Assembly (NCBI RefSeq): GCF_003428625.2
Contig: NZ_QVQT02000003.1
Span: forward strand, 1 to 64,000
DNA: 64,000 bases
Direction: 5' to 3'
Source: Paracidobacterium acidisoli
GTDB lineage: Bacteria; Acidobacteriota; Terriglobia; Terriglobales; Acidobacteriaceae
Positions 1,417-37,865 of the stretch are shown here, one piece after another. Numbering within the stretch: the first letter of the stretch is position 1; the number at the start of each line of letters is the position of its first letter. A program made the translations under genes and the position numbers. A model generated the notes under the pieces. That model searched no databases, was not told where the DNA came from, and worked only from the letters and a program-made list of their open reading frames with translations.

Positions 1417-2079
1417 ATGGCAAACATTGACGTATTGAATCTGAGCGGAGAAAAAGTGGGATCGCTCGAGCTGGCCGATGAGGTGTTTGGCCAGCAGAAC
1501 GAGGCGCTGCTGTGGGAGGCGGTGAAGCACTATCGTGCGGCACTGCGTCAGGGAACAGCGGCAACCAAGAACCGCAAACTGGTCTCCGGTTCGGGCAAAA
1601 AGCTCTGGAAGCAGAAGGGCACGGGCCGCGCGCGTATCGGTTCGGTGCGCTCGCCCCTGTGGCGTCACGGCGGCACGGTGCACGGACCGCAGCCCCGCTC
1701 CTACGACTATGCGTTTCCGAAGAAGAAGCTGCTGGGTGCGCTGCGCTCGGCGCTGGCGGTGAAGCTGGCCGACGGAAAGCTGACGGTGGTGGAGAGCCTC
1801 GATCTGAAAGAGGCGAAGACAAAGCTGTACCGTCAGGCGCTGAACAGGCTTGAAGCGAAGAAGACGACGCTGCTGGTTGAGAACGGCGAAGCTTTGAGCC
1901 CGACACTGGTTCTGGGTGCCCGGAACCTCCAGGGCGTTGAGCTGATGCTGAACAATGAAGTGCACCCGTACGATCTGCTGCGGTACGAGCGGGCGATCTT
2001 CTCGCGGGCAGCGATTGAGAAGCTGCAGGAGTCGCTGAAGAAGACGGTTTCGAAGCGTAAGCATGCGGAGGTGGCCTGA
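1417..2079 (+). CDS. rplD: 50S ribosomal protein L4
   Basis: Large-subunit protein lining the exit tunnel; in Escherichia coli it autogenously represses the S10 operon. The 220-residue product carries the tunnel-loop motif [20 protein letters not shown] at about residues 61-80 and the [10 protein letters not shown] stretch after it. Its stop TGA (2077-2079) overlaps the rplW ATG by one base, implying translational coupling. Confidence 0.97.
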
Positions 2080-2372
2080 TGCCGACAACCTATAACGTGA
2101 TTCGTCGTCCGCTGATTACCGAAAAGGGACTGACCGTTAAGGAGACCCAGGAGACGCTGGTCTTCGAGGTGGATGCGAAGGCGACCAAGACGGAAGTGAA
2201 GCAGGCGGTTGAGCTGCTCTTCAAGGTGAGGGTATTCGATGTGCGCACCGCGAACTTTGCGGGCAAGGAGCGCCGCCGGGGCAAGTTTTCCGGATACCGT
2301 CCCGACTGGAAGAAGGCGTATGTGCGCCTGAAGGCGGGCGAGAAGATGCCGGAGTACGCGAACAACCTGTAG
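2079..2372 (+). CDS. rplW: 50S ribosomal protein L23
   Basis: Exit-tunnel protein that forms the docking site for trigger factor and SRP. The 97-residue product has the N-terminal [11 protein letters not shown] signature and the [20 protein letters not shown] loop that contacts 23S rRNA. Its start overlaps the rplD stop (TGATG). Confidence 0.97.
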
Positions 2373-2415
2373 GACAGGGCTCAGAGCGTATGGCTCGGAG
2401 CGCAGAGAGATAAAG

Positions 2416-3240
<825 letters not shown>

Positions 3241-3267
3241 AACAGGCAACAGGAACAGGATTAAAAG

Positions 3268-3552
3268 ATGGCACGGTCAACGAAAAAGGGCGCCTTCGCG
3301 GATACGCACCTGATGGTGAAGATTGAGGCAATGAACCAGGCGAACGACCGGAAGGTGATTCGCACCTGGTCCCGCCGCTCGACGATTCACCCCGAGATGG
3401 TAGGCCATACGATTGCGGTGCATAACGGCCGGAAGTTTGTGCCGGTGTATGTGACGGAGAACATGGTGGGGCACAAGCTGGGTGAGTTCGCGGCGACGCG
3501 GACCTTCAAGGGACACTCGGCGAAGGCGGAGACTGCGGCCAAGCCGCGCTAA
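3268..3552 (+). CDS. rpsS: 30S ribosomal protein S19
   Basis: Head protein that forms inter-subunit bridges and contacts A-site tRNA. The 94-residue product starts [12 protein letters not shown] and contains [22 protein letters not shown] and [16 protein letters not shown], both strongly conserved. Confidence 0.97.
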
Positions 3553-3606
3553 GAATTCAAGCCGGGCCGAAGCGGCTTCCGGCAGGTACGCAGAGGGATT
3601 ACAGGC

Positions 3607-4131
3607 ATGGCAACGCAACTCGAAACACGGGAATTCCGGGCCGAGGCGAAGTTTCAGCGGGTATCGCCGCAGAAGGCGCGTCTGGTGCTGGACCTTATCA
3701 GGGGACGGAGCATCGAAGAGGCGCTGAACATAGTGGCCTTCGCGAAGAAGGCGGTTGCTCCGCTGGTCGAAAAGGTGCTGCGCTCGGCGCTGCAGAACGC
3801 GAACTATCTGAGCCAGGAGCAGGGGCTCGACGTGGATGTGGACAACCTCTATGTGCGGAAGGCGATTGCCAACGAAGGTCCGCGCATGAAGCGCATCCGG
3901 CCGGCTCCAATGGGCCGGGCTTACCGCTACCAGCGGCGGCTGTCGCATATCTCGATCGCACTGGCGGAGCGGGGCGCGGCAGCCGGGTTGGTGGAGCGTG
4001 TGGATGAAGATGCAGCAGCGAAGCCGGTGAAGAAGCTGGCAAAGAAGGCGGCGGCGAAGAAGGCTCCCGCAAAGAAGAGCGCTGCGAAGAAGACGGCGGC
4101 AAAGAAAGCCGCGAAGAAGTCCGCGAAGTAA
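3607..4131 (+). CDS. rplV: 50S ribosomal protein L22 with Lys/Ala tail
   Basis: Exit-tunnel protein; its beta-hairpin lines the constriction next to L4. The core ends with the conserved MGRAYRYQRRLSHI segment at about residues 103-116. At 174 residues it is about 55 longer than usual. The extra C-terminus (from about residue 135) is almost only Lys and Ala in KKAAAKK-type repeats, resembling histone-H1-like tails, and is probably a flexible rRNA-binding extension. Confidence 0.96.
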   Translation: MATQLETREFRAEAKFQRVSPQKARLVLDLIRGRSIEEALNIVAFAKKAVAPLVEKVLRSALQNANYLSQEQGLDVDVDNLYVRKAIANEGPRMKRIRPAPMGRAYRYQRRLSHISIALAERGAAAGLVERVDEDAAAKPVKKLAKKAAAKKAPAKKSAAKKTAAKKAAKKSAK

Positions 4132-4155
4132 GCGGAAAGAGCTCAGAGGGCAATT

Positions 4156-4827
4156 ATGGGACAGAAAGTCCATCCTTACGGATTCCGGGTCGGAGTAAAC
4201 AAGCCGTGGCGGTCGCGCTGGTTTGTCGAGCGTGATTACGACAAGCTGCTGGTCGAGGACGTGCACCTGAAGCGCGAGCTGAAGGAGAAGCTGAAGGCGG
4301 CGGGCGTGAGCTCGGTCGAGATCGAGCGTCCGGGCAACAAGCTGCGGCTGATCATCCGCACGGCGCGTCCGGGCATCGTGATCGGGCGCAAGGGCGCCGA
4401 GATCGAGAAGCTCAAGGGCGAGCTGCAGAAGCGCACCAACCGCGAAGTGTTCATCGACATTCTCGAGGTGAACAAGCCGGAGCTGGATGCGCAGCTGGTG
4501 GCTGAGAACATCGCGCTGCAGCTGGAAAAGCGCGTCGGCTTCCGCCGCGCGATGCGCAAGTCGGTGGATTCGGCACTGCGCTTCGGCTGCAAGGGAATCA
4601 AGGTGCGCGTGTCGGGCCGTTTGAACGGCAACGAGATCGCGCGCTCGGAGTGGTATCTGCAGGGACGTCTGCCGCTGCACACGCTGCGCGCGGACATCGA
4701 TTACGGCTTTGCCGAGGCGCGCACGACGTATGGCGTGATCGGGGTGAAGACGTGGATCTACCGCGGCGATATTTATCAGCAGAAGCGGCGTGAGCCGCAG
4801 GCGGCGGTCGGCACCACGGTATTTTAA
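4156..4827 (+). CDS. rpsC: 30S ribosomal protein S3
   Basis: Shapes the mRNA entry channel together with S4 and S5. The 223-residue product starts [13 protein letters not shown] and carries the type-II KH motif [17 protein letters not shown] near residues 74-90, followed by the S3 C-terminal domain ([15 protein letters not shown]). The following spacer contains a triplicated 14-base repeat. Confidence 0.97.
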
Positions 4828-32768: not shown

Positions 32769-34212
32769 TCATTGTGAGATTGTTCCGTCCGGTGAAGGAG
32801 CCATGTCCATTACGACCTGATTTCGTCCCGCAGCTTTTGCTGTGTAAAGCGACTGATCGGCGCGAGCTAACAGTTTCTCGTAGTCCAGCTCCCCGGCGAA
32901 TGCGGCTATCCCCAGGCTGGCAGTTACAGAGAGGACGTTCCCGTCCGGAAGCCGGAGAATGAGGTCCTGAATACATTGCCGTATGCGTTCAGCGATGTTG
33001 CCGGCGAGAGAGGGATCGCAATCCACGAGCACGATTAATACTTCTTCTCCCCCATAGCGGAAGATGAAGTCAGAAGGGCGACAACATTGCGTAATGGCGG
33101 CAGAAACCTGCTGCAGCACGGCATCTCCAGCCAGATGGCCAAAGGTATCGTTGACCTCTTTAAAGCGGTCGATGTCGAACATGAGGATACAAAAGCCCCG
33201 GTCTTTTCGAATCTTCTGGAGTGCGATTTCACGCATCAACACCGTCGGCAGGAAGCGCCGATTGAGCAGGTAAGTTAGTGGATCGCGGCCATTTTCGATT
33301 TCCAGACGGGCTTCGAAAAGATTGTTCAGGCTGAATTTGACGGAGGCTATCTCCTGCTGAATACGCGATCAGTGAACCGACCACGTTTCGTTCAGCATAG
33401 ACGGCGGACTCGAGCGCCGGCACAAGGTCAGTGTCGATTCTGGTAACGGCATCCACGATCACGCCGACTTCCATCGCACCTTCGAAAAGAAGGCGTGCCT
33501 TATGGTCAAGCCAGAGGCCGAAGTCTGATTTTCCCAGGAGAGGAAGACACTGAATATCGCCAGACTGGCAGAAGGAAGTCAAAATATGCTGGACCCACTC
33601 CATGAGCGCAGCGCGCTGCCGCTCTTTCTCCATGGCGAGATTCTGACAGAGCGCCTGCAGCCGGTATGTCTCTTCCAGCCGCGCATGTTTGGCCTGCCTA
33701 GAATAAAAGCTGGCCGCCCGAATTTCTACGGAAATATCGATGATGAATACCAAACATTTAACGGTTTCCAGAAGCTGTTCGGATGAAAGGGGAAGAGTCC
33801 CGAGATGCGATATAAACCAGAGTTTCAGTTTGCGCATGGACCGCGATAAAGCGTAAGGGGGCAGCCCAATGCGCGCCATCATTCGTCCAACTTCCTTCTG
33901 GCGTTCACAATACTCGTCGACCGCATCTGGATCGAGCATCAACAGATGCTCGATCCATTTCAGGAATAATTCGGTGATCTCCTGACGTCCCGCATCGGTT
34001 GGAATCACACTGGCGATCTCGCGGTCTTTTGTGAGAAAGGCTACATATCGATCGCATAAATCCTGAATGTGATCGGTCAGAATCCGGTGCAGAATTTCCC
34101 GGCACCGCGTATCCACAGAAGAGACGTAAGCCTGCCACTCGGCAGCAGTTTCGCGCAGGGCCTCAGCTTCGAGCGTTGGCAAATGTATGTTTCTCCTTTG
34201 AAAGTTCGCCAT
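32769..34212 (-). pseudogene. DosC-like globin-coupled diguanylate cyclase, frameshifted
   Basis: The first reading frame (from 34212; TTG 34182 after AAAGGAG is an alternative start) covers a globin-type sensor domain and the linker SDFGLWLDHKARLLFEGAMEVG, which closely resembles Escherichia coli DosC (YddV). One extra base near 33360-33361 then breaks the frame. The other frame continues QQEIASVKFSLNNLFEARLE and NGRDPLTYLLNRRFLP into a GGDEF domain ending at 32769. That domain has an RxxD inhibitory site (RPSD) and RYGGEEV in place of GG(D/E)EF. Repaired, it would be about 480 residues, close to DosC (~460). The proximal haem His is Met in MMARIGLP. Sequencing error cannot be excluded. Confidence 0.82.
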
Positions 34213-34613: not shown

Positions 34614-35753
34614 ATGTCTGCCCTCCCTCAGTCGACACTGCATATTCTTCGCGCTCACTGGATTCACTGGCTGATCGGTCTGGCCATTCTGGTTGCCGCG
34701 GTAGTCCTCAGCTCTTTTGTGCGCAGTATCCTTACGCGGCTGCTGGCGCGTATCCGCGGTTTTCACTTCGGCGACAACTCGCCGCTGGCACGCATCGTGC
34801 ATCGGGTTCGACGTCCGGTTCAGGCGCTGGTTCTGTTTACCGGGGTTGGCTTCATTCTGCCGCTGCTGGATATGCCTGCAGTGTATCTGGGGCCGATGCA
34901 GAAGGCTCTGGCGGTGCTGTGGTTTATCGCTCTTGGCTGGCTGATGATCTCCGCGGTCTATTGTCTTGAGGATCTGCTGATTCTGCGCTTCGACATTTCC
35001 GTCGCCGATAATCTGCGCGCGCGCCGGGCACGCACGCAGCTCCAGCTGATGCGACGCATGCTGATCACGCTGCTGATCGTGATCGATGTCGGCCTCGCGC
35101 TCTCTGTCTTTCGCGATTCGCAGATCTGGCACTATGGTGCGGGGCTGCTCGCTTCGGCCGGGCTGGCCAGTCTGGTGCTGGCCACGGCAGCCAAGTCTTC
35201 GGCTTCGAATCTTCTGGCTGGTCTGCAGATCGCCTTCACCGAACCGATTCGTCTGGACGATGTGGTGATTGTGCAGGGCGAATGGGGGCGCATCGAAGAG
35301 ATCACGACGACTTATGTTGTTGTCGCGATCTGGGATCAACGGCGCCTGATCGTGCCACTGAGCTATTTCATCGAGAATCCATTTCAGAACTGGACACGGA
35401 ATACCGCCGATCTCCTGGGGTATCCCTATCTTTACGTCGATTATTCGGTGCCGGTGGAGCCGCTTCGTCAGGAATTCCGACGGATTCTGGAGGCCTCGCC
35501 CGACTGGGATAAACGGGTTTGCGTGCTGCAGGTCACCAATCTCTCCGAGCATACGATGGAGATTCGCTGCCTGCTGAGCGCCGCCGACTCGAGCAGGCAG
35601 TTCAATATCTGCTGCGAGGTTCGCGAGAAGATGGTGACTTACATTCAGAAGAATTATCCGGACGCGTTTCCGCGTACGCGCTTCAGCGCTGTCTCATCCG
35701 GCGGAGAGAAGCAGGAGCGTCTGATGCAGCCTCCGTTTGCAGAGAAGACATAA
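34614..35753 (+). CDS. MscS-family mechanosensitive ion channel
   Basis: 379-residue inner-membrane channel. Four N-terminal hydrophobic segments (about 18-42, 62-85, 100-122, 150-170) precede the pore helix region (AGLLASAGLASLVLATAAKSS) and the MscS beta-domain PIRLDDVVIVQGEWGRIEEI ... LIVPLSYFIENPFQNWTR. A soluble alpha/beta C-domain follows. The extra N-terminal helices place it with YnaI/YbdG-like members rather than the three-helix MscS. Flanked by the 78-bp repeat and lying between two c-di-GMP genes. Confidence 0.94.
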   Translation: MSALPQSTLHILRAHWIHWLIGLAILVAAVVLSSFVRSILTRLLARIRGFHFGDNSPLARIVHRVRRPVQALVLFTGVGFILPLLDMPAVYLGPMQKALAVLWFIALGWLMISAVYCLEDLLILRFDISVADNLRARRARTQLQLMRRMLITLLIVIDVGLALSVFRDSQIWHYGAGLLASAGLASLVLATAAKSSASNLLAGLQIAFTEPIRLDDVVIVQGEWGRIEEITTTYVVVAIWDQRRLIVPLSYFIENPFQNWTRNTADLLGYPYLYVDYSVPVEPLRQEFRRILEASPDWDKRVCVLQVTNLSEHTMEIRCLLSAADSSRQFNICCEVREKMVTYIQKNYPDAFPRTRFSAVSSGGEKQERLMQPPFAEKT

Positions 35754-35825: not shown

Positions 35826-37865
35826 TCAGGAAGTGCTGGCGGCAAGCCTTGCCTGCAGATCTTCCACGATATGACGCAGCCGCTCGCGCTCTCCCGCGCC
35901 GTCGTTTGCGTTGGTAATGGCGGCAACGCAGCCGGTGATCGTGCCGTCTGCGGACTGGATGGGAGCAGCGGTCACACAGATCCAGATCATCTGCCCGTCG
36001 CCCCGCCGATAGCGGAATTCTTCTGCGTCGGTTGTTTTGCCGAAGAAGATGGCGCGCTCCAGAGGCAGATCCCTTGCATGAACCGGTTCTCCATCGGGAT
36101 AAAAGACGACTCCCTGCTGCTGTTCGGCCAGATCGACTCCCCGGAAGAGCGGACGGCCCAGGATGGCTTCAGCCTGAGGATTACCCATGACAATGCGACC
36201 TCCGGGGGCCTCGGCGATGACGATACCCACCGGGACGGCCTGAAAAACGGCCTGCAGCCGGGCTTCGCTTTGCCTCAGCGCCTCTTCTGCCCGCTTGCGG
36301 TCATCGATATCCTCGACCGTTCCGTACCAGCGCACAATCTTTCCGCCTGACCCGCGACGCGCGGCTGCGCGCGCACGCACCCATCGCCATTTGCCATCGC
36401 CCCGGCCGACCCGGTATTCGATATCGAGCGGTCTGCCGGTACGGAGGCACACGTTCCAGATATTCTGCACACGCTCAAGATCGTCCGGGTGCACCGCCTG
36501 TTTCCAGCCATCGCCCCGCGTCTGCTCTTTCGTCTGCCCGGTGAGGCTCTCCCATTTAGGACCGGAATCGAGAATGGCTCCCTCGGCGTCGGCGGTCCAT
36601 GGCACCTCGGCGTTCAGCTCCACGGCATTGCGATAGTGATCCTCGCTCTCGATGAGAGCCTCCTGCGCCTTTTTGCGCAGGGTGATGTCCACAACCGCGC
36701 AGGAGACGCCCATGATCTCGCCGGCCTCGTCACGGACCGGTTCATAGGACATGAGCAGATATTTTTTTCCGCCGGGCTCCTGCGCATGGGGCCTTTCTAT
36801 CTCGAGGTCGGAGATCGATTCGCCCATGAGAGCCCGGTGCAGCCAAGGCTCCACTTCGGCAAAGGCCTCGGGCAGTATTTCGGCCACGGTGCGTCCCAGA
36901 TGCTGGGAAAGCGGCTTGCCTGTGATTTCGGCGAGGCAGCGGTTAAGGCTGCGATAGCGCAGATTGCGGTCGAGAAAGCAGAGGCCGACCGGGGCGCCGT
37001 CATAAATCGCCTGCAGCTGTGCCAGACGCTGCGCGGGAAGGGCTTCCAGCTGAAGGGCCACCTCTTCACCAGGCGGCTTCGGCGCGGAGACATTCGCCAC
37101 GGTCCCGAGTGTCTTCGCCGCCAGAATGGCCGGCAGCTCCGCGGCGGGAACAGCGCGGCTGAAGAGCCAGCCCTGCCCGAGCTCGCAGCCCATCCGGAAG
37201 AGCATTTCCGCCTGTTCCTGCTCTTCGATGCCTTCCGCCACGGTTTCCATCCCAAGGCTATGCCCCAGGCCCACAACAGCGGCTGCGATCTTCCGGCTGC
37301 CTCGCTGATAATTCATCGAGCGCACGAAGCTCGAATCGATTTTGATTCGATCGAGAGGTAAAGCCTGCAGGTGGCGCAGGCTGGAGTAACCGGTTCCAAA
37401 GTCGTCGAGCGCAAGCTGGGCTCCCATCTCCTTAAGCTCCTCGGCAATGACTGAGGCGAGCTCCAGATTCAGCACGAGAGCGCTTTCGGTGATCTCGACG
37501 ATCAGGCGGCGAAAGGGGAAGTGCGCGCGCTCGGCTACAGCATGCAGGCGCGAGGCGAAGATGCGATTGCGAAGCTGGATGGGAGAGATGTTGACTGAAA
37601 GTGTCAGATGCTCCGGAAGTCCGGCTCCGACGGCGAAGGCCTGTGTCAGCAGCCTTTCGGTGAGCGATCCGATCAGCTCTGTCCGCTCGGCGAGGGGGAT
37701 AAAATCGACAGGCGGGATCAGCCCGTTTTCCGGGTGCTGCCAGCGCGCCAGTACCTCGAAGCCGGATAGCCGTCCGGTTCTCAGTTCAACAATGGACTGA
37801 AACCAGGGAACAATCTCATCCCGTTCGAGGGCCTTGCGCAGGTCATTTTCGTTCAGGGGAGACAT
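35826..37865 (-). CDS. EAL-domain c-di-GMP phosphodiesterase with three C-terminal PAS domains
   Basis: 679 residues. The N-terminal EAL domain (1-~250) begins with FEVLARW (EVL for EAL) and keeps the metal and catalytic set: Asn of SVNISP, Glu of EITES, DD of ALDDFGTGYSS, Lys of IKIDSSF, Glu of AEGIEEQEQ, Gln of GQGWLFS. It is probably active, hydrolysing c-di-GMP to pGpG. Three PAS/PAC units follow (~285-410, ~415-545, ~545-660) with WRWVRARA and VDITLRKKAQEAL linkers. PAS sensors after, not before, the output domain is an unusual order. No kinase or GGDEF part. Confidence 0.93.
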   Translation of the reverse strand: MSPLNENDLRKALERDEIVPWFQSIVELRTGRLSGFEVLARWQHPENGLIPPVDFIPLAERTELIGSLTERLLTQAFAVGAGLPEHLTLSVNISPIQLRNRIFASRLHAVAERAHFPFRRLIVEITESALVLNLELASVIAEELKEMGAQLALDDFGTGYSSLRHLQALPLDRIKIDSSFVRSMNYQRGSRKIAAAVVGLGHSLGMETVAEGIEEQEQAEMLFRMGCELGQGWLFSRAVPAAELPAILAAKTLGTVANVSAPKPPGEEVALQLEALPAQRLAQLQAIYDGAPVGLCFLDRNLRYRSLNRCLAEITGKPLSQHLGRTVAEILPEAFAEVEPWLHRALMGESISDLEIERPHAQEPGGKKYLLMSYEPVRDEAGEIMGVSCAVVDITLRKKAQEALIESEDHYRNAVELNAEVPWTADAEGAILDSGPKWESLTGQTKEQTRGDGWKQAVHPDDLERVQNIWNVCLRTGRPLDIEYRVGRGDGKWRWVRARAAARRGSGGKIVRWYGTVEDIDDRKRAEEALRQSEARLQAVFQAVPVGIVIAEAPGGRIVMGNPQAEAILGRPLFRGVDLAEQQQGVVFYPDGEPVHARDLPLERAIFFGKTTDAEEFRYRRGDGQMIWICVTAAPIQSADGTITGCVAAITNANDGAGERERLRHIVEDLQARLAASTS

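Follow-up and report, generated by a model that had tools for sequence, protein, structure and literature searches.

A DosC-type diguanylate cyclase lineage with methionine at the proximal position of its globin sensor, which most likely works without haem

The DNA analysed here (hereafter the window) is a stretch of 64,000 nucleotides of Paracidobacterium acidisoli, in which an ORF of 327 residues on the minus strand (33229–34212) encodes a globin domain and a middle domain of the DosC type. The globin (protoglobin) domain extends approximately from residue 22 to residue 168 (33709–34149, minus strand), limits that we set ourselves from a Pfam match to residues 41–166 and from a structural model, and the middle domain (DosC_2nd in Pfam) covers residues 194–268 (33409–33633, minus strand). 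Both Pfam families score above their cut-offs (42.7 bits for Protoglobin, whose cut-off is 25; 51.8 bits for DosC_2nd, whose cut-off is 31) and are the only ones that Pfam assigns to this ORF: no STAS output domain was found, the downstream ORF being a GGDEF domain. No second protoglobin match was found in the genome that carries this ORF, and Rfam gave nothing above gathering scores within the window.

The GGDEF (diguanylate cyclase) part, delimited by Pfam and tblastn, lies at 32769–33365 on the minus strand and carries the sites GGEEV and RPSD. It is read in another frame than the globin, and its ORF (33242–32769, minus strand) therefore does not belong to the same polypeptide. By contrast, the three closest relatives that we found, encoded by two genomes of the same family as the window (G031 and G087) and by Novosphingobium sp. 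FSW06-99, are intact over their full length, with the GGDEF domain in frame. As judged from tblastn of these relatives on the window, the frame of the similarity changes at about 33362–33365 (minus strand), and the last part of the 327-residue ORF is out of frame relative to them. Apart from this change, both frames are open. Since the GGDEF frame is still open from 33365 to the stop at 32769 and remains 59–61% identical to the relatives, the break is either recent or an assembly error; the window copy may be a dying, recently broken gene or the product of a sequencing error. The sensor domain is located wholly upstream of the break and can thus be studied without repair, and the three intact relatives are better objects of study than the interrupted window copy.

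The surroundings of the gene are as follows. A gene for an MscS-type channel (34614–35753, plus strand) stands between the broken diguanylate cyclase and, upstream of the latter, a gene (35826–37865, minus strand) for an EAL protein that also contains three stretches of PAS type, a possible c-di-GMP-degrading neighbour. In G031 (L055, 5587–9111) and G087 (L056, 7328–10812), the intact Met-type gene comes after an ORF on the same strand whose first residues resemble Dxs; the window has no such neighbour. In Novosphingobium (L007), the gene is divergent and lies beside ORFs that, by eye, resemble a CheW-type and a PAS/chemoreceptor-type protein (532–2004 and 2015–4813, minus strand). The neighbours differ between the window and its relatives, and these neighbouring genes gave no hint of the nature of the signal.

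The original prediction was that residue 112 is a methionine at the place where DosC-type sensors have the proximal histidine, and this is borne out by a gapless alignment and by the codon itself. The codons of Met111 (33880–33882, minus strand) and Met112 (33877–33879, minus strand), which lie in QKEVGRMMARIGLPPYALSR, are both ATG. In alignments, the Met112 column holds the proximal His of Escherichia coli DosC (also EcGReg or DgcO; 4zva and 4zvb), 4uii and 8h17, and when profiles are compared, the domain aligns with the globin domain of DosC over 142 columns without a gap, Met112 being paired with the proximal His98. The globin fold is predicted to persist in the window protein: a model of the domain, built from a two-row alignment (mean pLDDT 81.8), has the globin domains of DosC and BpeGReg as its best PDB matches (for 4zva, E 5e-4 and a TM-score over the target of 0.85). 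A second structure comparison, the top row of which was 4uiq_A (Z 16.6), superposed residues 20–167 of the model on residues 6–154 of 4zvb (148 aligned residues, rmsd 2.2, Z 16.3), so that the numbering is shifted by 14 where the match begins and by 13 where it ends. Because these rows give ranges only, the residue-to-residue pairing of Met112 with His98 rests on the sequence alignments.

An alignment or assembly artefact, with another histidine actually standing at the proximal place or with the Met being a sequence error, is hardly credible, even though a frame change does lie nearby in the assembly. Misalignment of the proximal position is ruled out by the gapless profile alignment to DosC and the agreeing register of the fold ranges. 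A change from His (CAY) to Met (ATG) alters all three bases, so a single misread base cannot yield Met112, and a single-base sequencing error is also ruled out by the presence of the Met in three further genomes. As for another histidine taking over, a possibility raised with the original prediction, none is common to the four proteins within columns 1–170, counted on the residues of the window protein, the G087 member having only two histidines there, at 7 and 152; the register of the model, known as ranges, likewise puts residue 112 at position 98.

The original prediction had also raised the question of whether relatives share this methionine, and it is present in all three of the closest ones (the pair at 111–112 is MM, MM and LM, against MM in the window, so that position 111 reads Met, Met, Met and Leu across the four members). 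We aligned 42 distinct sequences, the four Met proteins and 38 others, after dropping two weak matches before the count (L015, which has an internal stop and gave no usable row, and L044, which matches in the middle domain only). The proximal column is Met in 4/4 members of the clade and His in 38/38 of the other DosC-like rows, a figure that becomes 32/32 once rows more than 90% alike are removed. The His-to-Met replacement is confirmed as real and as more than a chance event, being inherited within a small clade.

This protein family is rare. Query genomes counted in, matching genomes numbered 3/200 in the survey of the order, 3/396 in that of the phylum and 2/19 in that of the genus of G031. 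Around Novosphingobium, the corresponding figures were 3/397 for the family, 5/385 for the class and 26/398 for the phylum; only the Novosphingobium genome itself falls in the Met clade there, and the other alignable matches have His. Plasmids gave 84 matching records, all below 60% identity, of which eight were taken as comparators; every one of these that could be aligned has His (the sequence of one of them, L047, is identical to that of the genome row L017). A scan of viral contigs found no relatives.

We then consider the history of the replacement. For the tree, which comprises 40 rows (L027 and L043, short or weak, were left out), the columns of the proximal position and of two distal positions were removed from the alignment. 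A branch with a support of 100/100 separates the four Met proteins from all other rows; with 0.92 changes per column, it is the longest inner branch among those listed, and one change is enough to explain the Met label. The tree thus suggests that Met at the proximal place arose in one ancestor of the four-member clade.

The replacement of the proximal ligand is accompanied by changes on the distal side of the pocket, as seen by comparing the four members with the 32 non-redundant His sequences (DosC numbering is used below for the comparison). The distal Tyr43 is replaced by Val, Gln, Met and Leu in the four members (Tyr in 28/31 of the others) and Phe42 by Tyr in all four (Phe in 30/31 of the others), the two positions corresponding to Tyr56-Val57 of the window protein (34042–34047, minus strand). 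Leu65 is replaced by Ile or Phe (Leu in 32/32 of the others), the three relatives compared carry Phe in place of Met69, and the position of Met151, which is Met or Ile in 32/32 of the others, is an invariant Arg in the clade (Arg165 of the window protein; 33718–33720, minus strand). According to the portion of PMC5549716 available to us, the distal-pocket residues Phe42, Tyr43, Ala68 and Met69 are needed by EcGReg for full activity. Residues that every one of the four members retains are Trp72 at the haem edge, Gln91, Arg100, Pro104, Trp192, Phe217, Gly218 and Trp220. The statement in the original prediction that the other landmarks of the domain are retained therefore holds for the residues of the signal relay (see below) but not for the distal side of the haem pocket, Phe42, Tyr43 and Leu65 being replaced in all four.

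Because the distal landmarks of the haem pocket are replaced throughout the clade, loss of haem is favoured, and we infer that the globin domain of these proteins is devoid of it. The original prediction had left three options, haem bound through Met, no haem, or the sensing of something else, which is a sensible list. Methionine is known to ligate haem elsewhere among proteins, and Met112, invariant and exactly at the proximal place, would fit a haem ligand as well as it would a packing residue. If haem were still bound with Met112 as its axial ligand instead of His, the domain could be a sensor of redox state, CO or NO with an altered affinity; such a globin free of the proximal His, acting as a redox- or CO/NO-responsive c-di-GMP switch, would be unlike known globin-coupled sensors. 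The conservation of the haem-edge Trp72 in all four members and the presence of a second methionine that is likewise invariant in the clade, Met126, speak for this reading. However, the distal side has been rebuilt too, with Tyr43, Phe42 and Leu65 gone and Phe at position 69 in the three relatives compared, and we are not aware of any globin in which Met alone serves as the proximal ligand, nor did a literature search by title find one. We consider retention of a Met-ligated haem to be unlikely, and a switch of the kind just described to be equally so.

In the parts of the protein that lie beyond the globin, the relay residues have been kept and the catalytic residues almost completely so. His223 and Lys224 of the middle-domain pi-helix, essential in EcGReg according to the part of PMC5549716 that we could consult, are identical in all four members (His237-Lys238 in the window protein; 33499–33504, minus strand). 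Of the 16 diguanylate cyclase residues in the list given in that same partial text, every member retains 14; the two exceptions are Asp376, for which they have Glu (GGEEF being an accepted form of the motif), and Phe378, which is Phe, Phe, Ile and Val. This last position is the fifth residue of the GGEEF motif, Val in the window (32769–33365), Ile in Novosphingobium (L007, 4932–6458) and Phe in G031 and G087.

Could the globin domain be a decayed, non-sensing remnant that merely holds the dimer together, leaving the cyclase constitutive? The window gene is frame-broken, the fifth residue of its GGEEF motif, like that of the Novosphingobium protein, is no longer Phe, and the sensor part evolves faster than the rest: between G031 and G087, identity is 56% in the globin part, compared to 86% in the middle domain and 84% in the GGDEF domain. 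Such faster change in the globin part can be read either as adaptation or as looser constraint. Nevertheless, the three relatives are intact from end to end, and the substitutions between G031 and G087, most other pairs being saturated in dS, point to strongly purifying selection in all three parts (dN 0.28 and dS 1.86 in the globin, dN 0.074 and dS 1.24 in the middle domain, dN 0.091 and dS 1.22 in the GGDEF domain).

The distribution of invariant positions within the globin also argues against mere decay. In the stretch that runs from the F helix through the FG corner to the G helix (residues 105–133; 33814–33900, minus strand), 20 of the 29 positions are invariant in the four members, whereas 67 similarly divergent quartets of His sequences have 12.4 on average and 16 at most; for the G helix, the figure is 11/15 in the clade and at most 8 in the quartets. 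This segment thus appears to be more tightly constrained than its counterpart in comparably divergent sequences of the haem type. Note that the quartets share sequences and thus are not independent of one another, and that the clade is somewhat more conserved over the entire globin domain as well, with 40 invariant columns compared to 26–36 in the quartets, so that the excess in the F–G segment is suggestive only. Taken with the intact relatives, these data make a non-sensing remnant rather improbable.

Comparison with known systems places the window protein in the lineage of E. coli DosC and BpeGReg, with which it shares the order globin, middle domain and GGDEF, matches to Protoglobin and DosC_2nd above the cut-offs, the relay pair His223/Lys224, the active and inhibitory sites of the GGDEF domain and the predicted globin fold. 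It differs from them in that the proximal His is a Met, the distal Tyr and Phe are replaced and, in the window, the GGDEF domain is in another frame. A globin fold lacking both the proximal His and the distal Tyr is otherwise found in Bacillus subtilis RsbR, the non-haem globin sensor of the stressosome. Indeed, in the text of PMC4976288 that was available, the Bacillus RsbR clade is described as having neither residue and its haem-binding Vibrio relatives as keeping both, and the accessible part of PMC4476040 reports that the proximal His of RsbR is replaced by Ala74 and that no haem is bound, the signalling input being kept. Unlike RsbR, which has Ala at this place and a STAS output, the present proteins have Met and a diguanylate cyclase output, and belong to the DosC lineage; the model matched RsbR (2bnl) with a Z of 11.2, no higher than ordinary globins. 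Mycobacterium tuberculosis MabR is, as far as the consulted portion of PMC11617747 goes, another non-haem globin joined to a GGDEF-like domain. MabR differs in that its helix F was not observed and in that it belongs to a family with an HTH output and without the DosC middle domain; at the level of the searches run, it is unrelated to the window protein. In the part of the review PMC8846402 that we saw, the globin-coupled sensors of c-di-GMP enzymes are presented as oxygen-sensing haem proteins, and no DosC-type protein without the proximal His was found in the open-licence literature as far as titles and the beginnings of abstracts reveal.

The joint loss of both haem-face ligands is the pattern of Bacillus RsbR, and on this ground we take the domain of the Met clade to be a haem-free globin. 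The reading that we regard as likely, drawn from the sequences of a clade of four members, is that the protein is a DosC-type diguanylate cyclase sensor whose globin lost its haem-binding machinery in one ancestor and now most likely functions haem-free; a change of signal, from oxygen to something else, has probably taken place in this small branch. That signal would enter at the former haem pocket or in its neighbourhood, and could be a small, perhaps hydrophobic or acidic ligand lodged in the pocket, or a partner protein. An acidic ligand is one possibility because Arg165 is both new and invariant in the clade; a fatty acid in the pocket would recall the B. anthracis case mentioned in PMC4976288. 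The signal would move the strongly conserved segment of the F and G helices, the movement would reach the middle-domain pi-helix, as it does in the oxygen-sensing relatives, and would set the rate of c-di-GMP synthesis. Since the F–G segment and the residues of the pi-helix are those kept most firmly in the clade, we infer that the new signal may use the old route. The section of PMC7033309 at our disposal describes, for PccGCS, cross-linking between the F helix and the pi-helix region of its middle domain.

It is on account of their haem that globin-coupled diguanylate cyclases are regarded as sensors of oxygen. As the Pfam Protoglobin match remains above its cut-off in the present case, caution is called for when an oxygen sensor is annotated from a domain match alone. 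A conserved branch without haem ligands, in which the relay and the enzyme are kept, would show that the globin input can be re-used for another signal in the control of c-di-GMP, a re-use that would parallel that of RsbR in the stressosome. The intact relatives would make it possible to test what a haem-free globin senses, in an enzyme whose activity is simple to read out.
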